In this document: in pieces, positions 14,615-23,648 of the stretch
How positions within the stretch are numbered: the stretch's first letter is position 1
Layout of the letters: every line of letters begins with the position of its first letter
Source of the DNA: a virus
Direction: 5' to 3' (one strand)
IMG/VR virus record: IMGVR_UViG_3300020391_000015
Coordinates: 1 to 28,970 of that record
DNA: 28,970 nucleotides
The notes under the pieces: model-generated
Database searches by the model: none
Seen by the model: the letters and a program-made list of their open reading frames with translations, nothing else
Told to the model about the DNA's origin: nothing
Program-made: the position numbers and the translations under genes

Positions 14615-15751
14615 CTATGTTGCTAATCCATTCATACTTAGTATCGCAATCAAGCCGGGCACATTTTTTCTGACATAAACACCAGAAAAAAGTGTCTCGC
14701 ATCGACCGCCGACATAAGCGATTGCCGACTCGATATTCTTGCTAACTCTTGGGTCAGCTACCATCTCTTCTGACACAACCAGCACCAACGAACCTGCTGC
14801 GGCCTTGCCCTTGGGTGGAGGACAAGCAGAACGATTCATGCAGTTGTGGAGGATCACCGATCCAAGCTTTCCAGTATTTGGATCTTTAATCATAGTTGAG
14901 CCCATGAAGGCACGACCGTCATTGCCCAGACAAGTTTCTAAGTCCTTACTATCAAAAGACTGGATCGGTGAATCCTCATTGGAGAGTTTCAAAACTTGGG
15001 CTAATGACTTTGCAAATTGTGTGTTGGCAACTGGATACATACCCAGCATACCAATTCTACCACGAAGTAATCTTGTTGCTCGTTCGTTATCAAGGATGAT
15101 GTGTGGGTATTTCGACACATCATTCGCAAGAGCGAGAGCATTTCTAGCTATTGTGGGGTTCAGGTTTTCTTGTGCTGTTGGCCAAGATGTAACATATACT
15201 ACTTGTCCAGAAGCTTGAACAGAGCGAAGGTACCGCTCAAACACAGGATGAAGAGCAGTGACACTACTACCGGTCCCACCGCCACCACCAGCAAGGACGA
15301 ATAACCAATCAACTTTCCCCAGTTTGATGCGGAGAGCATCTTCAACAATCGCTCCATTTTGTGTTAATACCTCTTTTCCATATTCTACATTTTTACCAAT
15401 ACCGTCAGCATCGGGAATGAGGACAACATGATCCTCTTCAACATTCTTAGGAATGTCTTTGCCTGTTGTGTTAACAAGCAATGTTTTGTTGAAGCCAAGC
15501 TCAATAAAAGCATTGGCCATTTTGTTTCCACCACCACCAACACCAACAAACCCCACATTAATAGATGATGGGGCTGTGTTTTCGGGCAGTAAATCTTCAT
15601 CAGAGTATTCCATCTGTAGACCAAAGTCTTCTACCATTCCAAAGTCTTCTGCTTCTACCTCTTCGTGATAGTGGTCTTTCTCCTGATTAAAGGAGGGTGG
15701 TGGCTCTGCGGGAGGCAGAAAATCAAATTCGTTATCGTTATCGTTTGACAT
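14615..15751 (-). CDS. FtsZ/tubulin-family GTPase
   Basis: A 378-residue cytoskeletal GTPase. Residues 1-62 are an acidic, Pro-rich disordered extension. The nucleotide-binding domain follows with INVGFVGVGGGGNKMANAF (64-82), LVNTTGKD (92-99) and the tubulin signature AGGGGGTGSS (154-163). The T7-loop region SFDSKDLETCL (265-275) lines up with FtsZ NxDxxD: both Asp (267 and 270) are kept and the leading Asn is Ser. It is followed by GRAFMGS (279-285), as in FtsZ. The protein ends near residue 378 without an obvious FtsZ C-terminal tail. It would polymerise with GTP in the host cytoplasm. A filament for positioning DNA or heads, as with PhuZ in jumbo phages, is likely but unproven. Confidence 0.9.
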   Translation of the reverse strand: MSNDNDNEFDFLPPAEPPPSFNQEKDHYHEEVEAEDFGMVEDFGLQMEYSDEDLLPENTAPSSINVGFVGVGGGGNKMANAFIELGFNKTLLVNTTGKDIPKNVEEDHVVLIPDADGIGKNVEYGKEVLTQNGAIVEDALRIKLGKVDWLFVLAGGGGGTGSSVTALHPVFERYLRSVQASGQVVYVTSWPTAQENLNPTIARNALALANDVSKYPHIILDNERATRLLRGRIGMLGMYPVANTQFAKSLAQVLKLSNEDSPIQSFDSKDLETCLGNDGRAFMGSTMIKDPNTGKLGSVILHNCMNRSACPPPKGKAAAGSLVLVVSEEMVADPRVSKNIESAIAYVGGRCETLFSGVYVRKNVPGLIAILSMNGLAT

Positions 15752-15762
15752 TGTTTGTTTCC

Positions 15763-16428
15763 TTATTGTTCGTCATCGGGTTCCTTTGCTTTGGTTTTGT
15801 AAATGTCTTTTTTAGATATACCCTGCTTGAATTTAGGAATCATCTTTTGAGCCCTTTTCAGAAGACTAATTAACTCAAAAAAATGCTCATTGGACACCGG
15901 GTCGGGTAAGCCTTCCTTTTGTGAAGTTTCTCTATCTGTTTTGTAGCCTCGCTCACTAAAATCTGCACGGCCAATATCAGGTTCTGGTGCAATATTTGAT
16001 GGATGATTTTGAATTCTGTCAAGACCATCTTTTATAGCTTTTAAATTTTTCATATATTCTTCTTGCCACTGATTAAATAAACCTGCTTTTGGGCGATCAA
16101 GGGATGCACCAATAGAACTGAGGTTCGGCTCATTAATCGATAAATTTTTCAAAAGATTCCTCAATCCTGATATGGCTTGAAGGTCAGCCACGGCACCATC
16201 GCGAGTCTTTTCTATTTGGACACCGCGAGCGGCATCATAATTATTAAGTATTCTAAGGCTTTGTCCAACATTTCTCGCCGCTCGATCGAGGAGGTCGCCT
16301 GTTTGATCAAAAGTATCTCGATAAAGTTTGCGAGCAGCCGGAAACAACTCATCTAGTTGCTGTTCATCAATGACAGCTTCGAGTTCTTCTTTGATAAGTT
16401 TCTTAAGTTCTGATTTTTTGATTTTCAT
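15763..16428 (-). CDS. Leader-bearing helical protein between Mre11-Rad50 fusion and FtsZ-like gene
   Basis: A 221-residue protein starting MKIKKSELKKLIKEELEAV, with I-K-E as the putative protease site. Its start overlaps the stop of the nuclease fusion gene by one base (TAATG). After the leader it has LDELFPAARKLYRDTF and long charged helices, a disordered Pro/Asp/Glu segment (about 150-180) and a basic helical C-terminus (RAQKMIPKFKQGISKKD). There is no membrane segment or enzymatic motif. Like the other leader proteins it may be an internal head protein, but its place in a unit with recombination genes leaves other roles open. Confidence 0.65.
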   Translation of the reverse strand: MKIKKSELKKLIKEELEAVIDEQQLDELFPAARKLYRDTFDQTGDLLDRAARNVGQSLRILNNYDAARGVQIEKTRDGAVADLQAISGLRNLLKNLSINEPNLSSIGASLDRPKAGLFNQWQEEYMKNLKAIKDGLDRIQNHPSNIAPEPDIGRADFSERGYKTDRETSQKEGLPDPVSNEHFFELISLLKRAQKMIPKFKQGISKKDIYKTKAKEPDDEQ

Positions 16429-19400
16429 TATTGGTTAACCCTTGCATATCCTGCTTTCTTTTCAATCACGATTTGCATATCAACACAATCTTTGAGCGAA
16501 TCAAGGTGCGAGATCAACAAAACATTCTTGAAATATACCTTAATTAGTTCCAAAATCTGAATAAAACCCGACATATTGTCTTCGTCAAGTGCTGTACCCG
16601 GTTCATCAAGAATAAATAAGTCTGACTTTGGCAGTGATGAAACTCCCAACAATGCTAGACGGATAGCCATAGCAGACAGTGATTTCTCTGCACCTGATGC
16701 CATCTCTATCGGTCGCTCTTCATACTTTGGATGCTTGATATTGATGTCAAACTTATTACCTGCAGCTTCAAAGAATACTTCAAAGTCAACAATATTAGCA
16801 AGCACCTTCGCAATCTCTTCGTTGATTACTGGTATCTTCTTCTTAATGACATCGTAAGCGATACCATTCGGGTGCATACAAATCATAAACAAATGATATG
16901 CAGCGAACTCTGTCTGTAAATCTTGGTACTCCTGCTTTTGTTCTTTAATAGTCTCAATCTTTTGTTCGTATGAACCAACAGATTTGACAAGCTCAAGTGT
17001 GACAGCATCACAGGTATCAATCTTCTTTTGTGTTTGTTCAATCTTATAATGACACTTGTTAAGCTGAATAACTAAGGCTTCAAGGTTTTCAATTGCTTCT
17101 TTGTTTTCTTCATATTCATCCCGCTTGGCACACAGTTCTTTCAGTTTATCTTCCAAAAACAAAATGGAGTTTTTATTTCTTTCAATTTCAAGATTCAGAT
17201 CAGCGATTTCAGATGAAACTGTATGCTTGTTAGACTCAATCTTATTATACCGTTCAAATTGTATTTCAACATCTGTAGGGTTTAGTCCCTTGATTTCATC
17301 GGTAATTATATTAATAGTCTGTAGTGTATCTGATTGTTGTGACTCTACATCGGCTTTTCTACTAACTGCCGCTTGTGCCTCTTTAACAAACTCGTTACTA
17401 GAGCAATATTTACAATCGGGATCATATTCATGATCGTGTAGCAAATTTTCTTTCTTTAGAATATGATTGTGCTCTTCAAGTAATTTATCAAGATTATCCT
17501 CTTGTATTTTTAGCTGTTCTTTGTATTGATTAATCTGTCGTCGCTGCGTTTCAAACTTATGCAAATCAAACTCATCGAGAAAACTTACAATTTTCTCATA
17601 CACACCTTGCTTTGTTTTTAAGGTACTGGCAAATTTATCGTTCTCAATATTATGCTTAGTTATCAGATTTTCTTTTAATCTGATTTCCTTATTGACTGCT
17701 GCAATATCAATAATTTCTGCCGGTATAGAATCAATCTTAGACTCAATCTCATTTTTAACATCAGTTAATTCTAAGACTGCTTCTTTTAGGGCAGTACAAA
17801 TTGACTTGTGTTCGCTCATTTGTTGTCTAGCATCTATGAGTGACGCATTCACAGCATCTAATTCATCATCATAGTTTTTACTTTCCAGTCTCTTTAGTGC
17901 ACCCTTAAGGTCAACTGAGTCTTCTTTCGCTAGCTTAAACTTGCGATCAAACAATTCAAGATCGAGAAACTTCGCGATGATTTCCTTACGACGGGTTGAT
18001 CCCTCATCAATGAATGCTAGTGCGCCATGTTGTGATGATAGGGATGATACTGCAAAGTCGTCAAGTGTGCCAAACTGTTTTCGTATATTGGCATCTGTTA
18101 AGGTTCTAGTGAGACCATTTAAAGATGTGGTTTCATCCGTTACTGGATCATACACTTCAAAGTTTAACTCAGTCTTGGCTTCTAGTGTTTCTTCGCCTTT
18201 CAGTCTCTTAATATACTTCTTGGCTTTTCGTTCAACTGTATAAACCAAATCATTAATCTGTATTGTAACCTTTCCACGACAATCTTCTTTATTCTGATTG
18301 ATTACATTTAAGTTCTTTCGTTCGTTCTTGGATGTTGTATTGAATAGTGTCCACAGGATACCATCAATGATGCTGCTTTTACCAGAAAAGTTTTTACCAA
18401 AGATACCAATAATACCACTTAGCTCTTCAAAGCTAACATTATTACCATCCCCGTAATTAAACAAATTGTCAAACTCAAAGTCAACAAGTTTCCAGTTAAT
18501 ATTTCTCGATACATCTTCATTGTCCTCAACAATTTTATTATACTTCTTATTTAGTTCGTAAACTTTCTCAAGTGTGTTTTCTGCTACTTCATAGTCGACT
18601 AAATATTCGTCGATAAGTTCTTCTTGTACTTTTATATCTCTAAGGTTTTCCGTTTGCAGGCCATCTGTTATTCCCTCTACAGAGCCCCTTTCACCTGAAG
18701 CTCTGTTAAGAAAAGATATGCATTCAGGCTTAAATCTATGTTTGGCGATATCAACCGCTCTTTTCATAGAATCTAGCGGAAGATTGTTATTGCTAACGAG
18801 CCGCAAACGAGCACCAAGCGGAATAGAAATATTCTTTGGCATTCGTCCCTTGCGAGTAAGCTCGATAGTAATAAATGGCTTCGGGTTAGTAAGAGAGACA
18901 TGCCTTGTTGCCCAAGCATTTTTATCTTGGATATCCCAAATGAGATAACCCTTATCATTTGACTCTCCGTGATTTTGTTGAACAAGTGAGCCCGGATACC
19001 TAGCTCTCCCTTGATTATCTACTTTTTGATTTGTCTTGTGGATATCTCCAAGAAGAGCATAATCATATTTTTCTAATTCGTCAAGTGAAATATCTCCATG
19101 AGTCATCATCCAGCCACTGTCGGTTACAGAACCAACAACAGAACCATGGTACAACGCAATATTAACTCGATCATCCGGCAGTTCTTTTTGCCAATTCTCT
19201 GGGTCCACTATTGATAGAACGTGCAAGTCAATACCGGGTGCAACCTCGACCACTGATGCATACTTATGAAAGTGTATATTAGGATGTTCCAAGTAATCCA
19301 CAATAGGCGATATCGCATCAAGCCTACCACTGTTCTTCAGGTTCATATCATGATTACCCAGAATCATATGATAGGGTGCAATATCAGCTAAGCCAACAAA

Positions 19401-19595
19401 CAATTCACTCATCATTCTAATTGCTTCAGGACTTAAATCAAGCTTTGTATGAAACGTATCACCGGTGTTAACGATAATATCAGGTTTTTCTTCTCTCAGC
19501 TTTTCATAAAGCTGCTCAAACACGGCTCGATATTCTTTGTGATATTTAAGTTTTCGCACATGAATATCAGAGACGTGTGCTATTTTAATGCTCAC
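16428..19595 (-). CDS. Fused Mre11-Rad50 (SbcD-SbcC; T4 gp47-gp46) recombination nuclease
   Basis: A 1055-residue protein joining two normally separate subunits. The N-terminal phosphoesterase has HVSDIHVR (6-13), NTGDTFH (43-49), GNHD (80-83), LYHG (148-151) and GDIH (183-186). The Rad50 part has Walker A GKNFSGKSS (400-408), long coiled coils, zinc hook CKYC (728-731), signature ASGAEKSLS (966-974) and Walker B FILDEP (994-999). The complex resects DNA ends for recombination-dependent replication. GTG 19593-19595 with AGGAG upstream starts MSIKIAHVSD; a longer TTG start is less likely. The ribosome site overlaps the stop of a 31-codon gene. All key motifs are intact, so this is a true fusion rather than a broken pair. 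Confidence 0.93.
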   Translation of the reverse strand: MSIKIAHVSDIHVRKLKYHKEYRAVFEQLYEKLREEKPDIIVNTGDTFHTKLDLSPEAIRMMSELFVGLADIAPYHMILGNHDMNLKNSGRLDAISPIVDYLEHPNIHFHKYASVVEVAPGIDLHVLSIVDPENWQKELPDDRVNIALYHGSVVGSVTDSGWMMTHGDISLDELEKYDYALLGDIHKTNQKVDNQGRARYPGSLVQQNHGESNDKGYLIWDIQDKNAWATRHVSLTNPKPFITIELTRKGRMPKNISIPLGARLRLVSNNNLPLDSMKRAVDIAKHRFKPECISFLNRASGERGSVEGITDGLQTENLRDIKVQEELIDEYLVDYEVAENTLEKVYELNKKYNKIVEDNEDVSRNINWKLVDFEFDNLFNYGDGNNVSFEELSGIIGIFGKNFSGKSSIIDGILWTLFNTTSKNERKNLNVINQNKEDCRGKVTIQINDLVYTVERKAKKYIKRLKGEETLEAKTELNFEVYDPVTDETTSLNGLTRTLTDANIRKQFGTLDDFAVSSLSSQHGALAFIDEGSTRRKEIIAKFLDLELFDRKFKLAKEDSVDLKGALKRLESKNYDDELDAVNASLIDARQQMSEHKSICTALKEAVLELTDVKNEIESKIDSIPAEIIDIAAVNKEIRLKENLITKHNIENDKFASTLKTKQGVYEKIVSFLDEFDLHKFETQRRQINQYKEQLKIQEDNLDKLLEEHNHILKKENLLHDHEYDPDCKYCSSNEFVKEAQAAVSRKADVESQQSDTLQTINIITDEIKGLNPTDVEIQFERYNKIESNKHTVSSEIADLNLEIERNKNSILFLEDKLKELCAKRDEYEENKEAIENLEALVIQLNKCHYKIEQTQKKIDTCDAVTLELVKSVGSYEQKIETIKEQKQEYQDLQTEFAAYHLFMICMHPNGIAYDVIKKKIPVINEEIAKVLANIVDFEVFFEAAGNKFDINIKHPKYEERPIEMASGAEKSLSAMAIRLALLGVSSLPKSDLFILDEPGTALDEDNMSGFIQILELIKVYFKNVLLISHLDSLKDCVDMQIVIEKKAGYARVNQ

Positions 19596-19603
19596 AAACT
19601 CTC

Positions 19604-19699
19604 CTAGTTTAACATCATCCAAGCGAGGGCACTAAAACCATACCAAGAAGTGTAAATAATGATTGCTTTTACAAGTGTATCGATAATAAAGTTTCTCAT
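19604..19699 (-). CDS. 31-residue hydrophobic microprotein at head of operon
   Basis: A short open frame starting at ATG 19697-19699, six bases after an AAGAGGG site and about 20 bases after the -10 of a strong promoter. It reads MRNFIIDTLVKAIIIYTSWY, then GFSALAWMMLN. This is one hydrophobic, aromatic-ended segment with a basic N-terminus, fitting a single membrane helix. Its stop codon overlaps the ribosome site of the nuclease fusion gene, so it could be a coupling leader peptide, a true small membrane protein, or both. No homologue is recognised. The signals before it are better than for many annotated genes. Confidence 0.55.
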   Translation of the reverse strand: MRNFIIDTLVKAIIIYTSWYGFSALAWMMLN

Positions 19700-20702: not shown

Positions 20703-21641
20703 TTAAACTGCCGAGAGTAAATCTAGCAGTAAATAGTTATCAGTATCAATAAAAGATGCATTCTTTTTTCTTTGGTCAAATACAGATTTAGGCATTGCTC
20801 CAACATCTTCGTATCCTGACACATCTATTTTATACAATTCAATATCATATTCCAAAAGCATTTTAATAATCCGCCTTTCTTTTGTAGCGGCATCGGGGTC
20901 GAGTGCGATATAGATTGGTGTGTCGTTCCGTACAATCTTTCGTAATAAGTTGGACCCTGACCGTAGGGTTGAACCCAATATAGGAACAGCATTTCCGGCG
21001 ACCAGTGCATCAAATACTCCTTCGACCAATACTAGGTCTTTATTCCAGTCGATATATAGTTCATTAAAGGTTATATCTTTAGAGGCTCTTGGATTTTTAT
21101 ACTTGTAAGAGTCTCCATTATAAGAACGAGCAATAAAATAATTTATATCACCATCATCATCAAAAGATGGAATGACAATTCGGTTACGATATTCGCCGCT
21201 AAAGCAATAGCCAATCTTCCATTTAAGAATATCAGTCTTAGTTATGCCGCGTTTCATCAGATAGTTGTAAGCGTATACCGCAGTTGCTGGCAGTTTATCG
21301 GCTGCAAGACTTAAAAATTCATCAGGTAGTTCTAGCTTTTGAAGGACTTTCTCAGACTTTTCCTCCATAAAGAGGTCATTAAATCTCTCCAAATCCTGAC
21401 GCCCGAATATTTGGTCCCACGCAGCAAGTTGGTTATAGTTGCCAAACCGACGCACAACACGCCTAATGTTGCGGCCGCGATAATCACAAATCCAACATTT
21501 ATAAACATTCTTATCAACATTAACAGAAAACTTACGTTTGTGATGATGACAGACCGGACAAGTGAATAACATTTCTGAGCCCTTGTCGTGGCAGTTACCC
21601 AAGACTCCTTGCAATATTTTCTTAGCTTGTGCATTTTTCAT
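20703..21641 (-). CDS. DnaG-type DNA primase
   Basis: A 312-residue primase. The N-terminal zinc ribbon has CPVC (28-31) and CWIC (49-52). A basic core follows (YRNRIVIPSFDDDGDINYF, 151-169). The Toprim domain shows VEGVFDAL (206-213) with the catalytic Glu and ALDPDAA (246-252) with the Asp pair. It makes RNA primers for lagging-strand synthesis and would need a helicase not found in this window. It is shorter than bacterial DnaG and lacks a fused helicase, similar in scale to T4 gp61. Its ATG overlaps the stop of the 70-residue upstream gene (ATGA), so translation is coupled. Confidence 0.9.
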   Translation of the reverse strand: MKNAQAKKILQGVLGNCHDKGSEMLFTCPVCHHHKRKFSVNVDKNVYKCWICDYRGRNIRRVVRRFGNYNQLAAWDQIFGRQDLERFNDLFMEEKSEKVLQKLELPDEFLSLAADKLPATAVYAYNYLMKRGITKTDILKWKIGYCFSGEYRNRIVIPSFDDDGDINYFIARSYNGDSYKYKNPRASKDITFNELYIDWNKDLVLVEGVFDALVAGNAVPILGSTLRSGSNLLRKIVRNDTPIYIALDPDAATKERRIIKMLLEYDIELYKIDVSGYEDVGAMPKSVFDQRKKNASFIDTDNYLLLDLLSAV

Positions 21642-21850
21642 TCATCACCTATTATGGTATAAAAGCCATCTCTTATTGGTATAGGCCCAAAGCTACTCTG
21701 CTTAAAAAAGAAAGCATGAATTGTATCGCTATCAGGCTCAATACTCACTACTATACCACAATCTTCCATTTCAGTAAACTTGAAATTAATTTGCTTAGCT
21801 GGTGGGACAGCAGTATACCAACTTCTTTTTATTAAATCACCAACTTTCAC
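21638..21850 (-). CDS. Small SH3-like hypothetical protein
   Basis: About 70 residues starting VKVGDLIKRSWYTAVPP at GTG 21848-21850, in a GTGA overlap with uvsE; an alternative GTG at 21865 adds five residues. The pattern K-x-GD-[LI], GIVVSIE and a Phe-rich strand resembles small beta-barrel proteins common in phages. A related gene lies at 22838-23074 on the other side of uvsE. No active site is visible. It sits between two DNA-metabolism genes and may be an accessory factor. The function is unknown. Confidence 0.6.
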   Translation of the reverse strand: MKVGDLIKRSWYTAVPPAKQINFKFTEMEDCGIVVSIEPDSDTIHAFFFKQSSFGPIPIRDGFYTIIGDE

Positions 21851-22779
21851 TTTGCGGCTAGGCACTTCTGATTCTCGCGGTATCGTAGTAGCGCTAGCTC
21901 CTTGTGTTTAGCTTCGATCATAATATCAAACTCGTTGCCATAATCATCAAGAGTATTGTACACAAGATCTGAGTGCGCTTGTGGTTTAATTTTTGGATTG
22001 TTGTGTTCAAGCGAGCGAGACTCTGCATAATGTACAACAGGCTTAATATCACCCCACGTAGATAGTGCTAGCTCAAGTGCCTCTTGTTCTGTTTGTCCAC
22101 CGGGATGCAGCATGTGATGATGATAATCAAACACAATTGGAATACCAATACGCTTATATACTCCCTCATACAGTTCTAATGTAGAATACAATGAAGTCTT
22201 ATCATCATTCTCGACTGTCAAGCGTGAGCGTACGTTGTCGGGTAGCCGCTCAAAATTGCGACAAAAGTTATCGAGGGCAAAAGGCTTATCACCGTAGGCT
22301 GCACCAACGTGAATATTAAGCTTAGCATATGGTGTGCGGGGCAAGCCCATAAGATCAAACAAATCACCGTGTACAGATAAATCAGTCTTAGTCAATTCAA
22401 ACACCCTCTCCTTGGGTGATGCTAGCTTGTTAAACGGCCCCGGATGGGCTGTAAGCCGCATTCCGTGCTTGCGGGCAAAGTTACCTGCCTTAAGTGCCGC
22501 GGCGTGTATAGCGCCAAAATTAGGCAGTTCTGTGAGATCATATTCAGATGCCCACGGAATAATGTCGGAGGAAAGACGATAAAAGTAAATATCGTGCTCT
22601 AAATTCCATTCAAGAATAGTATATAAGTCACGTAAATTCTGTAGTGCAAGTTCTGCAGCATATTCAATTCCACGCTCATCAAACGTGCGCTTAATCATAC
22701 TGCGATTAGTAGTAATACGCTGCGACTTTGGCAGCGAAGAAAAACCCATATTGATACAGGCATAGCCCAAATGATTCAT
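21847..22779 (-). CDS. uvsE: UV-damage endonuclease (UVDE/UvsE family)
   Basis: A 310-residue TIM-barrel repair enzyme that nicks DNA 5' of UV photoproducts. Family motifs appear in order: LGYACIN (4-10), RLSSDIIPW (68-76), HPGPF (112-116), NIHVG (155-159), GDKP (163-166), VENDD (189-193), FDYHHH (217-222), VVHYAES (248-254), AHSDL (268-272) and MIEAKHKELALL (287-298). These include the His, Glu and Asp ligands of the metal cluster. ATG 22777-22779 with GGAGG upstream is preferred to GTG 22791. The gene is the first after the 22.8 kb promoter. T4 uses a different enzyme (DenV), so this is an alternative repair strategy for a sunlit environment. Confidence 0.93.
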   Translation of the reverse strand: MNHLGYACINMGFSSLPKSQRITTNRSMIKRTFDERGIEYAAELALQNLRDLYTILEWNLEHDIYFYRLSSDIIPWASEYDLTELPNFGAIHAAALKAGNFARKHGMRLTAHPGPFNKLASPKERVFELTKTDLSVHGDLFDLMGLPRTPYAKLNIHVGAAYGDKPFALDNFCRNFERLPDNVRSRLTVENDDKTSLYSTLELYEGVYKRIGIPIVFDYHHHMLHPGGQTEQEALELALSTWGDIKPVVHYAESRSLEHNNPKIKPQAHSDLVYNTLDDYGNEFDIMIEAKHKELALLRYRENQKCLAAK

Positions 22780-22795
22780 AACAACCTCCACACTA

Positions 22796-23081: not shown

Positions 23082-23648
23082 CTAGCGTTGACTTTCTATA
23101 TCCCATCCAGCTTTCGCAATTATAATAGCATCAGCACGATCATAACTTTCCGGTCTCGGGTTACCATGTTTAGTGTACTCTATGTGAAAAGCTGGCTCTG
23201 TCTCTAGTAAATGTTCTAATACTACTTGCTTAGCTTTTTGACCGCGTGGAACCTTAATCCCAACCTGTTTGCGTGCAGAAGTAGCTCCAATATACTCAGG
23301 ACGTATTTCAAACACTTCAAAGAGCAACCAAGATACAATGCCATTAAATCTTTGAAGGGCAGCCATTGTTTTACCAGAGGAACCACCAGAATTAAAAAAT
23401 GTGAAAGGCTGTTCAATATAAATGTGCTCAATAGGAAACTTGGCGTCTCCAAAGCCTGCCGAAGAATTATCATCATTATTAAGCTGATACATTTCATACA
23501 GGTCAAGTATTTTTTCTTTTATTGCAATTGTTTTGTCAAAAACATTTTTGTATTTTCTTAAATCAATAGAATCATAATATACTAGCTGGTCATCAGCTAT
23601 TACAGCAAAACCGGTGATACTGGTTGATACATCTACGCCTAAAATCAT
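23082..23648 (-). CDS. ruvC: RuvC-type Holliday junction resolvase
   Basis: A 188-residue nuclease of RNase H fold. MILGVDVSTSITGFAV gives the first catalytic Asp (6), IYIEQPF the Glu (79), and SYDRADAIIIAKAG the C-terminal Asp pair (170 and 173). A segment GATSARKQVGIKVPRGQKAK (121-140) matches the RuvC basic region. It would cut four-way junctions to debranch replicated DNA before packaging, the job of endonuclease VII in T4. It follows a structural gene by 12 bases with no clear promoter, so it is probably expressed with late genes, in line with that role. The ribosome site is weak. Confidence 0.88.
   Translation of the reverse strand: MILGVDVSTSITGFAVIADDQLVYYDSIDLRKYKNVFDKTIAIKEKILDLYEMYQLNNDDNSSAGFGDAKFPIEHIYIEQPFTFFNSGGSSGKTMAALQRFNGIVSWLLFEVFEIRPEYIGATSARKQVGIKVPRGQKAKQVVLEHLLETEPAFHIEYTKHGNPRPESYDRADAIIIAKAGWDIESQR

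Follow-up and report, generated by a model that had tools for sequence, protein, structure and literature searches.

We found that the minus strand at positions 16428-19595 of the 28,970-nucleotide stretch of DNA analysed here (the window; IMG/VR virus record IMGVR_UViG_3300020391_000015) very probably encodes a single-chain Mre11-Rad50 (SbcD-SbcC) protein of the Mimivirus R555 and marine phage type, which would be the counterpart of gp46/gp47 in a T4-like phage. In one uninterrupted frame of 1055 amino acids from a GTG, a complete Mre11/SbcD nuclease precedes a complete Rad50/SbcC ATPase, which supports the fusion proposed in a preliminary description of this DNA, and for both halves the family matches are far better than expected by chance: PHROG_100 (SbcD) at residues 12-363 with E 4e-33, PHROG_77 (SbcC) at residues 345-1063 with E 5e-51, Pfam Metallophos at residues 12-195 with E 9e-13, and Pfam SMC_N/AAA_23 at residues 386-1028. 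The frame is open over 1064 codons, from TTG 19622 (the mechanical start) or GTG 19595 to a stop at 16428-16430; residues are numbered here from the TTG, and numbers counted from the GTG are lower by 9. The GTG, already chosen in the preliminary description, is the preferred start because a TAGGAGA ribosome-binding site (19600-19606, minus strand) precedes it and close relatives keep the same arrangement. Since both domains lie on one chain, the Mre11:Rad50 ratio is fixed at 1:1, as had been proposed.

Two scans of IMG/VR confirmed at least 585 of 600 candidate stretches as relatives of this gene. The full fusion was present in a single frame at 107 loci, with 101 distinct sequences as some contigs are duplicated, and these full-length relatives span 24-97% identity; the search of phage proteins for the same domain order, suggested in the preliminary description, gave at least these 107 loci as well as fusions in isolated phages. 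Nearly all other loci are truncated at contig ends, the remainder being one scaffolded copy (L115), one copy with an insert that breaks the gene (L031) and two Mre11-only pieces. Two adjacent genes joined by an assembly or sequencing error could in principle look alike, as in many phages the SbcD and SbcC genes adjoin in the same order as in the fusion, and in Pseudoalteromonas phage XG4 they share a frame and are separated by a single stop. However, the 107 single-frame loci over such a range of identity, together with residues that are invariant across the join, exclude a chance or assembly origin, and we give the error practically no weight.

The fusion is the sole convincing SbcC and SbcD copy in marine relatives with 127-204 kb of sequence, a status that was judged from these long relatives, the window record being a 29 kb fragment. 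A second SbcD-like match, very weak (E 1e-4), occurs in one 159 kb relative, and Microcystis phage Mel-JY01 has no SbcD match other than the fusion. Searching the long records of the closest relatives with PHROG_77/PHROG_100 revealed no pair of split genes. Flavobacterium phage immuto, which has the nearest terminase (47%), was considered as a split-gene relative and rejected, as no SbcC match was obtained in it. In L031 (3665-4582; LR756508, a 484 kb phage) the insert splits the fusion gene between GDIHK and GSLIQQNHGE and carries a protein with a TnsA-like endonuclease domain; a group I intron was discarded for this copy, with no match in Rfam. L115 is found in the chromosome of a WOR-3 bacterium (CP070664) and was also considered as a prophage, but stretches of N enclose its phage genes, the fusion among them, and therefore it is probably a scaffolding artefact in the public record of a bacterial MAG chromosome.

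All five Mre11 phosphodiesterase motifs are present in the nuclease domain (residues 12-235; 18918-19589, minus strand, as all features of the gene), which was delimited by Pfam, motifs, alignment and an AlphaFold2 model: DxH (D19, H21), GDxxH as GDTFH (54-58), GNHD (89-92), H159 and GDIH (192-195). The Rad50 half shows the SbcC/Rad50 layout, in which a coiled coil separates two lobes that together carry Walker A, signature, Walker B and switch His. According to Pfam, motifs and the model, the N-terminal ATPase lobe (residues 376-560; 17943-18497) contains the Walker A GKNFSGKSS (409-417; 18372-18398), and the C-terminal lobe (residues 905-1064; 16431-16910) contains the signature SGAEK (976-980; 16683-16697), the Walker B/D-loop ILDEPGTALD (1004-1013; 16584-16613) and the switch H1039 (16506-16508). 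Between the lobes, coil comparisons and the model place an ascending coiled coil (residues 570-725; 17448-17915), which is hypervariable, and a descending one (residues 750-904; 16911-17375), hypervariable to about residue 880; they flank a coil apex recognized by its motif (residues 726-749; 17376-17447), with CKYC at 17403-17414. The claim that a single frame holds all motifs of both proteins stood for the five nuclease motifs and those of the ATPase, CKYC included, while three of them needed correction: metal motif 2 is GDxxH and not GDxxD, motif 5 is GDIH and not GHxH, and the ABC signature is SGAEK and not LSGGE.

Most nuclease and ATPase motifs of the fusion are invariant among relatives. 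In a set of 59, D55, N90, H91, H159, D193 and H195 were invariant, as were G54, H58 and the whole of G192-H195, and D19 and H21 were kept in at least 90%. GDIH has an Asp at the place of His206 of P. furiosus Mre11, a change of metal ligand that could weaken or alter the nuclease. It was considered whether the protein is a structural, SMC-like DNA tether with a degenerate, non-catalytic nuclease half, since both this substitution and that of GDxxD by GDxxH depart from canonical Mre11, and the long coils and the apex cysteine pair are kept. We regard this as unlikely, given that the other ligand-like residues are invariant or nearly so in the 59 relatives, and that the alignment also places GDxxH in the SbcD of Herelleviridae, there with the usual GHxH as last motif.

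The same window encodes a T4-type portal, a terminase and a prohead protease (Pfam, PHROG). Upstream of the fusion and on the same strand, Pfam and PHROG matches identify a DnaG-type primase (20703-21641) and a RuvC-like Holliday junction resolvase (23082-23648), and the survey of neighbours found a primase within 6 kb upstream in 64 of 65 loci and a RuvC-like resolvase upstream in 60 of the 65. Of 13 long relatives, 11 carry a gene of the RecA family. The repair gene for a UV endonuclease UvdE (21847-22791, minus, E 1e-59) also lies upstream, an arrangement shared by only 7 of the 65 loci. This context also bears on whether the product could be an anti-phage or superinfection-exclusion SMC protein similar to Lamassu LmuB instead of a replication enzyme, an idea suggested by the PADLOC match of LmuB to residues 391-1041 (E 5.5e-24). 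PHROG_77 is a far better match (E 5e-51), and Lamassu LmuB is an SMC protein without Mre11 that is encoded with LmuA and LmuC, whereas here the Mre11 half is present and the neighbours with matches are primase, UvdE, RuvC, an FtsZ-like protein and packaging proteins, none noticed as LmuA or LmuC. Furthermore, the gene has primase/RuvC on one side and packaging genes on the other, and it belongs to the core genes of the group, so that the defense role seems very unlikely.

T4 gp46/gp47 carry out DNA-end resection for recombination-dependent replication. By analogy with them, we infer nuclease activity, dimer geometry and a role in replication for the single-chain Mre11-Rad50. Two fusion chains would contact each other at the nuclease domains and, with ATP bound, at the heads; the helix-loop-helix of each Mre11 half would sit against a Rad50 coil at its root, and the hook would bridge the paired chains. 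ATP hydrolysis would open the nuclease to DNA ends, which would be resected to 3' single strands, and these may feed RecA/UvsX-driven recombination-dependent replication and repair.

Solved complexes show the Mre11 helix-loop-helix bound to the Rad50 coil at its root. The AlphaFold2 model, built on an alignment of 59 relatives (mean pLDDT 81, pTM 0.49), indicates how this element and the join may be arranged. The Mre11 capping domain is placed at about residues 236-306 (18705-18917) from the secondary structure of the model and matches to the Mre11 fold, with its last strand predicted at 301-306, and is followed by a loose loop at 309-323. Helices 330-340 and 348-367 are modelled at the place of the helix-loop-helix (residues 330-367; 18522-18635), which the alignment and the published description (PMC3175470) also point to as the expected coil-root binder, and the first Rad50 strand starts at 376. 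The preliminary description had put the linker at about residues 300-370. That stretch is instead the end of the capping domain, the loose loop and mostly the helix-loop-helix, and the covalent linker in the model is only about 8 residues, approximately 368-375 (18498-18521). It contains R373 and N374 which, together with W377 on the other side of the join, are invariant among relatives. In the T. maritima complex the end of Mre11 and the start of Rad50 are about 28 Å apart, and 9-12 linker residues are expected for such fusions (PMC3175470). As the linker is short and close to that length, and the helix-loop-helix is in place, the changed architecture suggested earlier is not implied; the simplest reading of the model would be a normal Mre11-Rad50 geometry made covalent. 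Packing of the helix-loop-helix on the coil root is held as an expectation, given the pTM of 0.49.

Fusions of this kind have been known since Yoshida, Claverie and Ogata described them in 2011 in Mimivirus (R555), Bacillus phage 0305phi8-36, bacteria and eukaryotes, proposing several fusion events across all domains of life; abundant marine homologues were argued to be phage genes, as phage-type primases were found on the same scaffolds (PMC3175470). Hence the novelty implied in the preliminary description does not hold: such fusions are also present in several isolated phages and are common in marine ones, and the window gene is a further member that closely fits the 2011 description. It shares with Mimivirus R555, compared by its published description (PMC3175470), the domain order of a complete Mre11 with capping domain and helix-loop-helix, a short linker and a complete Rad50, as well as GDxxH and the His206-to-Asp substitution; R555, however, has 1351 amino acids and belongs to a giant virus, while the window protein has 1055 and belongs to a tailed phage. 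The phage 0305phi8-36 fusion, by contrast, is reported to be without the capping/helix-loop-helix part and one P-loop segment (PMC3175470). In a fold search, the full-length matches were giant-virus fusions (Tupanvirus, Harvfovirus and Catovirus, at the top), about 20% identical to the window protein, and those of Tenacibaculum phages pT24 and PTm1, and matches to Mre11 and Rad50 structures were also obtained.

By tblastn, we found fusions in the isolated phages Mel-JY01, pT24, PTm1, PTm5, PAU, MA9V-1 and MA9V-2. The Mel-JY01 protein is full-length and 31% identical to that of the window over 99%, with an upstream primase in both phages. The fusions of Tenacibaculum (pT24, PTm1, PTm5), Chryseobacterium (MA9V-1, MA9V-2) and Sphingomonas (PAU) phages are also full-length, but about 250 amino acids longer and strongly diverged; a pattern search found no GDxxD/H motif in them, and their annotations go no further than 'metallo-phosphoesterase', 'DNA repair (exonuclease)' or gp288. 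The domains and expected function of the window protein are also those of T4 gp46/gp47 and E. coli SbcC/SbcD. In T4 and other split phages these are two genes, in contrast to the single frame of the window gene and the 107 loci, and gp47 has GDxxD and GHxH where the window protein has GDxxH and GDIH. Separate trees of each half, unrooted and made of phage sequences only, divided 20 fusions from 8 split phage pairs by a branch with support of 99/95 for Rad50 and 84/87 for Mre11, the latter not decisive; Mel-JY01, pT24, PTm1, MA9V-1 and PAU were on the fusion side in both. These phage-only, unrooted trees are compatible with one old fusion event in these phages.

The diversity of the hook is an unexpected observation, separate from the fusion. 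The preliminary description was right in placing a zinc hook motif in the window protein: a CxxC is located at the coil apex (CKYC, 737-740, in the context HEYDPDCKYC), and would constitute a predicted zinc hook. This CxxC hook has been described as conserved in all life forms, even viruses (PMC5093744). At least two apex cysteines were found in all 101 distinct fusions, versus 37 of 993 background coil windows of 24 amino acids, with variable spacing: C-x6-C in 65 fusions, CxxC in 27, C-x7-C in 5, CxC in 3 and C-x3-C in 1. The commonest apex is PCGxxFPxCKFI, and CxxC is the form in the fusions of isolated phages that lie outside the marine branch. The literature searched, with subscription journals mostly outside its scope, yielded no report of hooks with C-x6-C.

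When mapped on a head-only tree, the five classes of hook require at least 15 changes. Hook type (CxxC vs C-x6-C) and the surrounding coil differ at 90-97% head identity in loci L002, L008, L009, L012, L037, L088 and L102. Coil identity is about 90% for pairs with the same hook and heads 97-98% identical, versus about 52% for pairs with different hooks and heads 95-97% identical, the two sets being imperfectly matched for divergence. For instance, L008 (CxxC) and L009 (C-x6-C) share 97% of their heads and 52% of their coils. The divergent coil stretch goes from near residue 565 to near 885. This difference in coil identity weakens fast evolution as the whole cause, although it contributes; the sequences fit a coil-plus-hook module having been exchanged. 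The best-supported case of exchange is L002, because its coil is nearest to that of L027 and its head to that of L007, whereas the L009 coil is still nearest to that of L008; a putative donor lineage is visible for L002 only. It is possible, and we hold it with slightly less than even confidence, that in the marine branch the apex is an interchangeable part, mostly C-x6-C (PCGxxFPxC), and that hook and coil have been repeatedly swapped among almost identical enzymes.

The fusion itself settles nothing new, but a single-chain 1:1 Mre11-Rad50 of 1055 amino acids is a convenient object for structural work, and isolated fusion-bearing phages exist (Mel-JY01, PTm1, PAU). The hook result would be weightier, if it holds. 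Yeast Mre11/Rad50 is functional with a MukB hinge replacing the hook (PMC6969161), and a comparable exchange would have occurred seemingly about 14-15 times in one enzyme family. What a hook must do would then become testable with natural pairs such as L008/L009. Additionally, differing hooks would stop the enzymes of co-infecting relatives from cross-pairing, or would bind metal differently.

Two other observations were made in the window. Downstream of the fusion, an FtsZ/tubulin-like protein (14615-15751, minus) has the motif GGGGGTGS and matches Pfam Tubulin and FtsZ structures with E about 1e-10; about 30 of the related loci have it, in most cases with 80-99% identity, and its sole match in an isolated phage is a weak one in Bacillus phage G. 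Furthermore, five different, otherwise unrelated-looking proteins (starts 12074, 12931, 13867, 16428 and 20700, minus) have the N-terminus MKITxxxLKxIIKEE. Such sharing was absent from 20 shuffled windows, and two or more copies were found in 18 of 137 loci; it resembles a common N-terminal tag, which might, for example, serve targeting or be cut by the prohead protease.
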